This document shows, piece by piece, positions 36,937-40,491 of a stretch of 64,000 nucleotides of DNA. Positions within the stretch are counted from its first letter, which is position 1. Each line of letters begins with the position of its first letter. The stretch spans positions 1,922,001 through 1,986,000 of the forward strand of contig NC_014924.1 of assembly GCF_000185965.1 (NCBI RefSeq). The letters are read 5' to 3'. The translations under genes were made by a program, and so were the position numbers. The DNA is from Pseudoxanthomonas suwonensis 11-1 (lineage in GTDB: Bacteria > Pseudomonadota > Gammaproteobacteria > Xanthomonadales > Xanthomonadaceae). The notes beneath the pieces are model-generated. The model was not told the DNA's origin and did no database searches. It was given only the letters and a program-made list of their open reading frames with translations.

Positions 36937-38415
<1,479 letters not shown>

Positions 38416-38566
38416 GGCCAACTCCGGTGCGGATGGGATTACCCGAGCATAGCGCCGGCCACGTAAGACGCTGTCGGCAGCCCTGGCACAGGTTTGTTCC
38501 GCAGCTGCGCTTGCACGACGAGGGGGAGGACGTCCACAAGCAGGAGCGCTGGCTCCGGAGGGGAGC

Positions 38567-38672
38567 CGCGGTAGCGCGGGGGCATGACGCATTGCGCGGC
38601 TCCGCGTCCTGCTCCAACGCGCGAGCGCAGCACAGCCTTGTGCTGCTTGCGTCATGCCCCCGCGCTACCGCG
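38567..38672. repeat. Structured inverted-repeat element, copy 1
   Basis: Perfect 25-bp arms (38567-38591 and 38648-38672) flank a 56-base centre. The centre holds GCGCGGCTCCGC (38594-38605), GCTCCAACGCGCGA (38611-38624) and an inner perfect hairpin (GCAGCACA at 38627-38634, TGTGCTGC at 38639-38646). The same two unpaired blocks occur, in opposite orientation, in copy 2 at 38875-38989, whose stems have different but still complementary sequence. There is no reading frame. It resembles an intergenic repeat family, or one structured RNA in two copies. Confidence 0.75.
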
Positions 38673-38803
38673 TCTTCGCGAGCTTCCAGTCTCCGACCCT
38701 CCTCTTTCCCGGTCGGTGAGGCGGCATGTTTCCGCGCCCTGTCGACGCGCTCCGGGGCGCCCGGAGAGGGTGAGGGTCGGGATTCGATCCACGCGCACAC
38801 GGG

Positions 38804-38836
38804 CCCTCTCCCCAACCCACTCCCACAGGGAGAGGG
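38804..38836. repeat. Short CCCTCTCCC/GGGAGAGGG inverted repeat
   Basis: Nine-bp complementary arms (38804-38812 and 38828-38836) with a 15-base loop lie between the two large elements. Similar CTCTCC/GGAGAG motifs recur at 50598-50700. Such REP-like hairpins are common between xanthomonad genes. The surrounding 38673-38874 has no credible gene. Confidence 0.6.
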
Positions 38837-38874
38837 GCTATCTCCACCGAAGTCCGAAACCCAAAGGCGCAAGC

Positions 38875-38989
38875 GGCCGTCGTCCCAAGGGGGCATGGGG
38901 CAAGCAGGCCATGGATGGCCTGCGGTCGCGCGTTGGAGCCATGGACGGCGGAGCCGCGCGATGCCCCATGCCCCCTTGGGACGGCGGCC
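38875..38989. repeat. Structured inverted-repeat element, copy 2 (opposite orientation)
   Basis: Arms of 28 bp with one mismatch (38875-38902 and 38962-38989) flank a 59-base centre. The centre contains, on the minus strand, exactly the blocks of copy 1: GCTCCAACGCGCGA (38926-38939) and GCGCGGCTCCGC (38948-38959). It also has its own inner hairpin (GCAGGCCAT at 38904-38912, ATGGCCTGC at 38915-38923). It lies 135 bases before purB. Loop blocks are conserved while stems differ yet remain paired, which suggests selection for the folded shape. Confidence 0.75.
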
Positions 38990-39087
38990 CCATCCGGAGC
39001 CGGTGCACCTTCCATCCCACTGTTCCGATCCGCTCCAGGCCCACCCCAGCCCCACCCCGCCCGGCACGTCCCGCCGGCACGGCTTAG

Positions 39088-40491
<1,404 letters not shown>

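Follow-up and report, generated by a model that had tools for sequence, protein, structure and literature searches.

RsmA/CsrA is a global regulator, and the host of the DNA described here, Pseudoxanthomonas suwonensis 11-1, is presumably related to X. campestris and a member of the same bacterial family as S. maltophilia. According to excerpts of PMC7652899, NMR analysis of RsmE revealed a bound ANGGAN hexaloop and SELEX yielded RUACARGGAUGU for CsrA; an excerpt of PMC3937308 gives ACARGGAUG. The latter also states that rsmB homologues were not identified in Xanthomonas, and that RsmA regulation there may involve an undiscovered mechanism. RsmU, a novel RsmA-sequestering sRNA of Xanthomonas, was reported in 2020 (PMC7694677, in part). 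At the level of DNA repeats, excerpts of PMC3733652 describe families of TIRs in S. maltophilia that are linked to TIRYT genes, one of them self-complementary and mostly found at short mutual distance.

The window analyzed in this study, a stretch of 64,000 nucleotides, holds two inverted elements in the gap between a divergent fumarase-like gene and purB (Table 1). The initial annotation had placed two inverted-repeat elements with two shared sequence blocks at this site, and both elements and both blocks were located. The outer arms are 28 nt long and 96% complementary in the left element (38564-38591/38648-38675) and 35 nt long and 89% complementary in the right element (38868-38902/38962-38996). 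Block GCGCGGCTCCGC lies at 38594-38605 on the + strand and at 38948-38959 on the - strand, and block GCTCCAACGCGCGA at 38611-38624 on the + strand and at 38926-38939 on the - strand. RNA folding z-scores were -9.4 (left) and -8.9 (right) on the model strand, with 0/200 shuffles folding as well, and -8.3 and -7.8 on the other strand. When the whole 471-nt unit was folded, both local outer-stem folds survived on either strand. A sigma-70 scan in and around the window unit revealed no promoter-like site, and none was seen by eye in compact spacers of other genomes. The spacer of the window unit contains a CCCTCTCCC/GGGAGAGGG repeat (38758-38860), and similar stretches occur in other intergenic islands that were examined.

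Table 1. Coordinates of the inverted unit, its parts and its flanking genes in the window
Feature	Position	Strand	Remarks
Flanking gene, fumarase/aspartase family	36940..38415	-	fumC_II 532.6 bits (below cut-off 664.75); PRK12273 522.9 bits (above cut-off 510)
Left element of unit	38551..38679	+ (model strand)	R1 133.4 bits, E 1.9e-23 (copy among R1's own building sequences); ANGGA strand -, toward fumarase-like gene
Left: terminal hairpin A / outer end	38551..38567	+	pairs with right element's outer end in whole-unit fold
Left: outer stem 5' arm	38568..38591	+	
Left: inner hairpin C	38592..38624	+	complement strand: CAGGACG at 38605-38611
Left: inner hairpin D	38627..38646	+	complement loop AAGGCT, GGA lost
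Left: outer stem 3' arm	38648..38671	+	
Spacer of unit	38680..38870		CCCTCTCCC-type repeat inside
Right element of unit	38871..39001	- (model strand)	R1 142.5 bits, E 3.2e-25 (copy among R1's own building sequences); ANGGA strand +, toward purB
Right: outer stem 3' arm	38879..38902	-	
Right: inner hairpin D	38904..38923	-	+ strand loop CATGGATG at 38910-38917 (ANGGAN hexaloop)
Right: inner hairpin C	38926..38961	-	+ strand loop CATGGACG at 38940-38947
Right: outer stem 5' arm	38962..38985	-	
Right: terminal hairpin A / outer end	38986..39001	-	
Flanking gene purB, adenylosuccinate lyase	39124..40491	+	

Given the high GC content of the genome, the short blocks alone are no more frequent than chance would give: the 12-mer occurred at 10 places compared with 20 for a reversed control, and the 14-mer, with up to one mismatch, at 12 places in the 3,419,049-base genome compared with 9 for its control. 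All 12 places of the 14-mer aligned to one structure with 92.3% of cells paired; in their free minimum-energy folds, copy 243562 took another outer stem and copy 353474 was without hairpin D. Covariation in these 12 copies was 0.245 compared with 0.120 for shuffled alignments (0/500), in agreement with the compensatory change in the stems that had been proposed from the window pair alone. A covariance model, R1, was built from the 12 copies, window pair included. R1 identified 24 matches in the own genome at E up to 1, seven of which were the second strand of a listed place, giving 17 distinct places, one of them weak. Among 41 genomes (the own genome and 40 relatives), at least 17 matched R1, comprising 15/17 Pseudoxanthomonas genomes (own included) and 2/8 genomes of other genera in the family; no match was found among 16 genomes from other families of the order, which is a weak zero. 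A second model, R2, was built from 119 matches with the window pair in the alignment. With R2, the congener G011 displayed 141 matches representing at least 137 distinct places, and matches were found in at least 34/149 sampled genomes and 16/54 genera of the bacterial family. Between 23 and 150 candidates (83, 150 or 23) were scored per genome in these whole-genome searches, so the counts are lower bounds and the zeros weak. The number of matches was very uneven among congeners, from 0 to at least 137. Further copies, with covariation among them, were thus present in the own genome and in related ones, contrary to the refuting outcome named in the initial annotation. No known RNA of Rfam 15 matched the whole window above gathering score, the best sub-threshold match in the region being the miRNA model MIR1437 (30.2 of 168 bits). 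A narrow test for phage origin, with one pattern, identified no stretch in viral_contigs, and no report of the repeat family was found in open-licence PubMed Central papers.

Each element, about 130 nt long with an outer end (hairpin A), is a three-way junction formed by a long outer stem and two inner hairpins, C and D, and its stems evolve through compensatory change. Analysis of 115 distinct copies, in an alignment that was fitted to the structure, revealed that 93.5% of cells pair and that 40/47 pairs change on both sides. The number of cells changed on both sides was 867 compared with 232 after shuffling, and the covariation score was 0.467 compared with 0.147 for shuffled and at most 0.071 for slid alignments. 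The same layout recurred in the 35 matches examined from 14 other genera, where the stem sequences differed widely. The C-G pair beside the loop of hairpin D was kept in 110 of the 115 distinct copies, with gaps in 3, and the two pairs that follow it swapped freely; stem pairs 175/215 and 178/212 of hairpin D were also nearly fixed. In G003 and G012, copies about 65 nt longer, with the extra sequence in hairpin C, were observed (L100:620-815, L106:468-662, L129:534-730). Most copies have nearly perfect arms, which would also be expected of neutral long palindromes, whose complementarity is kept by template switching in replication (quasipalindrome correction) and which spread by recombination without any function. 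We consider this explanation improbable, since the loops are kept in 15 genera (own and 14 others) while the stems change, and since it accounts neither for the fixed pair beside the loop nor for the junction geometry.

Two different types of element are joined in recurrent convergent pairs, and the initial view of the window pair as two copies of one element was revised accordingly. In G011, 47/48 multi-copy clusters were convergent (+ then -), one was tandem and none was divergent; a further 41 copies were single. The sequences of 119/137 places, in 71/89 clusters, were read, and by sequence all 47 convergent clusters were heterodimers, with 33 of types 5-1, 13 of types 4-1 and one of types 2-3. 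Among 15 loci with two matches in other genera (L315, being of the own genus, was left out), 13 were convergent, two tandem and none divergent. The spacers of several units contained GTAG-type REPs, (GCAACA)n and other repeats. Microsatellite-like runs of (GCAACA)n or (GTTGCT)n were also seen at the outer end of elements (upstream in L009 and L010, and at about L201:9795-9830).

Such strict convergence, like the uneven counts among congeners, is in keeping with a purely DNA-level mobile palindrome, BIME/TIR-like and of giant size. In that case, an enzyme specific for single strands (HUH/Y1 or another) would recognize the folded ends during replication through the loop motif, which would resemble RsmA sites only by accident. 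We regard this explanation as a real possibility, though on the whole a doubtful one. The self-complementary TIR families tied to TIRYT genes in S. maltophilia offer a precedent (excerpts of PMC3733652), and the placement of the units bears on it in both directions. In G011, 27/33 of the 5-1 units shared one orientation with respect to the presumed replichores (P = 3e-4), in favour of this explanation, but the 4-1 units ran the opposite way in 10/13 (P = 0.09). The replichore bias for all clusters was significant by Fisher's test (P = 2e-4) with cruder, length-based types. The dif site had a match in 2/5 genomes and none in G011, so the G011 boundary was assumed to lie at 1.95 Mb; over boundary positions between 1.5 and 2.4 Mb, the agreement varied little (57 to 62 of 87). 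Of the 68 places in G011 with both neighbours called, 24 lay between convergent, 38 between co-directional and 6 between divergent genes, the last being a scarcity also known of REPs, which favours the DNA-level explanation. These calls came from a simple ORF and codon-position heuristic, in which a called gene overlapped the element in 14/71 loci. Single copies between co-directional genes were sense in four and antisense in six cases. In one G011 locus (L297, G011:C1:3196800-3198700), an element stands 543 nt after the rsmA/csrA start, behind a tRNA-Ser gene (L297:956-1048); the rsmA loci of G006 and G012 had no element match, and placement next to rsmA was not upheld as a pattern.

Upstream of purB, a pair was present in G000, G015, G008, G012 and G007; G003 and G013 each had one clear copy there, and no match above 13.5 bits was found in nine other genomes (of 16). 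Because elements stand there in several genomes, the site is an old one. Within this gap the best paralogue was closer than the orthologues in G000 and G012, which favours the DNA-level explanation, and partly so in G015, but not in G008. Between G003 and G012, orthologues were closest at 3/9 sites, which also speaks against a purely DNA-level element. Three unshared sites of G003 and G012 revealed no clean empty site with a target duplication, which likewise counts against that explanation; all three were mosaics in which REPs, (GCAACA)n and other repeats are mixed, so that an element may as well have been lost between repeats as inserted. With regard to MITEs, the inverted outer ends, which are short, pair with each other over the length of the unit, and neither a clean target duplication nor a parent transposon was seen at the three sites.

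We also examined the association with transposase genes that a REP/RAYT-like reading in the initial annotation implied, and this reading was not upheld. The element was searched for at 25 PF01797 (RAYT/Y1) loci from 15/17 genomes of the genus, each covering at most 1.5 kb either side of the domain match and less at contig ends. This search gave three weak hits (16.6-23.8 bits), and no RAYT/TIRYT gene in Pseudoxanthomonas was flanked by the element at any of the 25 loci. G005, with at least 12 element matches, had no PF01797 match. Both results count against the DNA-level explanation. The repeats around the Y1 genes of the genus were listed for 13 loci: L067-L071 were flanked by GGGGTCAG-type ends; L073 had a GGGGACGG-type, TIRYT-like end; L074 (G011) and L076 (G002) lay among GTAGGAGC-type REPs; L072 had a 133-bp perfect inverted repeat, which is another repeat than this element; and L075, L080, L082 and L083 had weak flanking repeats or none. 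REPs of the GTAGGAGC type were also observed inside the spacers of 130-nt units in G011. By eye, no fixed GTAG or CGTC foot was present among the copies listed of 130 matches and of 35 matches of other genera; some copies hold GTAG within the stem. Thus, as neither the tag (by eye) nor the transposase association (at the 25 loci) was found, membership of the element in the REP/RAYT group is not supported.

Both inner loops hold one motif in most copies. The loop of hairpin D reads RTCCNT in 106/111 copies, and hairpin C contains RTCC in 107/111. On the other strand RTCCNT becomes ANGGAY, which matches the ANGGAN hexaloop of CsrA/RsmA, and with the fixed C-G pair of hairpin D the sequence is CANGGAYG. 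A pattern of this kind, with just those two variable positions, is not predicted by the DNA-level explanation. We folded the ANGGA strand of 72 representatives, one per genome/type cluster (from 257 copies in 40 genomes; the window pair was folded separately). One or more A(N)GGA apical loops were present in 72/72 and two or more in 55/72, leaving 17/72 with fewer than two motif loops; dinucleotide shuffles had at least one in 30/216 and at least two in 2/216. The zero count of A(N)GGA on the model strand is no independent control, since its loops are the complement. The spacing between the motif loops was 22-40 nt, mostly 28-29. Of the window pair, the right element carries the two motif loops, ATGGAT and CATGGACG. 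The left element has none in its minimum-energy fold: GGA is lost in hairpin D, and the motif of hairpin C lies outside any apical loop when the complement strand is folded.

The CsrA family was found in 17/17 Pseudoxanthomonas genomes, and the protein of the own genome scored above both CsrA equivalog cut-offs. In G009 and G010 csrA was present and no element match was found, again a weak zero. G007 had three CsrA-family matches (C1:47152, C77:40009 and C77:5027), two of them on one contig. CsrA binding may be disfavoured where stems are very stable (PMC7652899, in part), and RsmU bound RsmA even with all four of its GGA motifs altered (PMC7694677, in part), so GGA alone decides little.

Across the family, the strand with the ANGGA loops is the strand with the better-kept fold. 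Among the 72 representatives, the ANGGA strand was more stable in 62 and the other strand in 8, with 2 ties; 4/130 copies of at least 140 nt and every sequence with N were dropped from this comparison. G·U pairs totalled 115 on the ANGGA strand compared with 57 on the model strand. Counted by genome, the ANGGA strand was favoured 25 to 6 with 9 ties, an asymmetry for which neutral palindromes do not account, and outside Pseudoxanthomonas 19 to 5 with 9 ties. The model strand without hairpin A had 153 A·C and 59 G·U cells, i.e. G·U is kept on the other strand (8/119 aligned matches were dropped from the wobble count: four of at least 140 nt and four duplicate places in L156 and L157). In hairpin A the preference is reversed, with G·U 121 compared with A·C 10 on the model strand. 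When it was included the totals were about equal (G·U 180, A·C 163), which would suit neutral palindromes. In the outer stem, 84/144 A·C cells came from two column pairs. Given these two column pairs and the opposite preference of hairpin A, shared ancestry accounts for part of the strand signal; strand-biased deamination or mutation could also imitate the G·U asymmetry. The window pair without hairpin A had almost no preference (ANGGA compared with model strand, left -83.7 and -83.0, right -85.3 and -84.6). With hairpin A and flanks, the right element preferred the ANGGA strand (-103.7 compared with -100.9) and the left element the model strand (-92.0 compared with -87.6).

This preference of the left element, together with the two conserved UCC loops, would fit an RNA from the model strand whose UCC apical loops are anti-Shine-Dalgarno motifs, like those of C-rich loop sRNAs. 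The loops of cuckoo/CcsR and the UCCC loops of S. aureus are examples of such anti-SD C-rich loops. We judge such an RNA highly improbable, as the model strand was the worse folder in 62/72 representatives and had fewer G·U pairs, and the UCC core is short for an anti-SD motif. More generally, the proposal in the initial annotation of a folded nucleic acid rather than passive repeats is borne out by the covariation, by loops conserved over 15 genera of changing stems and by the strand preference.

Binding by RsmA is the best supported reading, though unproven, and we infer both RsmA binding and transcription from sequence. It is weakened by the outcome of the promoter scan, by single copies in G011 whose orientation does not follow that of the genes, by the near lack of strand preference in the window pair and by a left window element lacking the motif in apical loops. 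Taken together, we tentatively regard the element, with a confidence somewhat short of an even chance, as a family-wide interspersed repeat, mobile now or formerly and resembling a very large BIME, in which the conserved information is a double RsmA/CsrA-binding module. The ANGGA strand would act as RNA. As a unit consists of two inverted elements, every transcript that crosses it, from whichever side, would carry exactly one of them in sense, and the two ANGGAN hexaloops of that element, at the predominant 28-29 nt spacing, could hold one RsmA dimer. In the divergent gap between the fumarase-like gene and purB, the leader of each flanking gene would contain the adjacent element in sense. In G011, where most units lie at gene 3' ends, they may affect the stability of mRNA or serve as a dispersed decoy for RsmA. 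The units themselves would spread at the DNA level.

A wider proposal, which we think rather unlikely, is that Xanthomonadaceae-type bacteria carry RsmA sites as an interspersed repeat, in numbers that reach 100 and more, mostly as inverted pairs that each give a sense two-hexaloop module on either strand. Spread and loss of units would rewire the RsmA regulon between species, and their total dose would titrate it. A repeat family in which two RsmA-type hexaloops are the most constant letters would be an unexpected further answer to how RsmA is regulated in Xanthomonas without rsmB homologues, and an instance of a bacterial post-transcriptional regulator whose sites come from mobile repeats. 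Should the RsmA link fail, the element would still be a repeat that spans the bacterial family and displays unusually strong covariation.

The copies stand as dispersed pairs and not in cassette arrays such as those of attC sites. ERIC elements fold as palindromes, and we know of no two-loop motif in them. By description, ERIC/RU-1 (127 bp) resembles the element in its size, its intergenic location and its occurrence at many places (excerpts of PMC2759123). As in the CsrB, RsmB and RsmX/Y/Z RNAs, GGA motifs lie in hairpin loops (PMC3937308 and PMC7652899, both in part), but here they belong to tens of dispersed two-loop elements, in inverted pairs and with a long outer stem, and not to one sRNA gene. 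RsmU/sRX061 of X. campestris, also an RsmA-binding RNA, is set apart by its description as a single mRNA-derived sRNA conserved in Xanthomonas (PMC7694677, in part). The closest likeness in genomic habit is to REP/BIME/REPIN repeats with RAYT, which, according to excerpts of PMC3733652, are likewise extragenic, of high copy number, palindromic, present as inverted heterodimers and rare between divergent genes. REPs are described there as hairpins of 20-40 nt with a GTAG/CGTC foot, whereas the element is a three-way junction of about 130 nt with two motif loops. It flanked no RAYT gene at the 25 loci searched, and GTAG-type REPs occur as separate repeats in some of the unit spacers.
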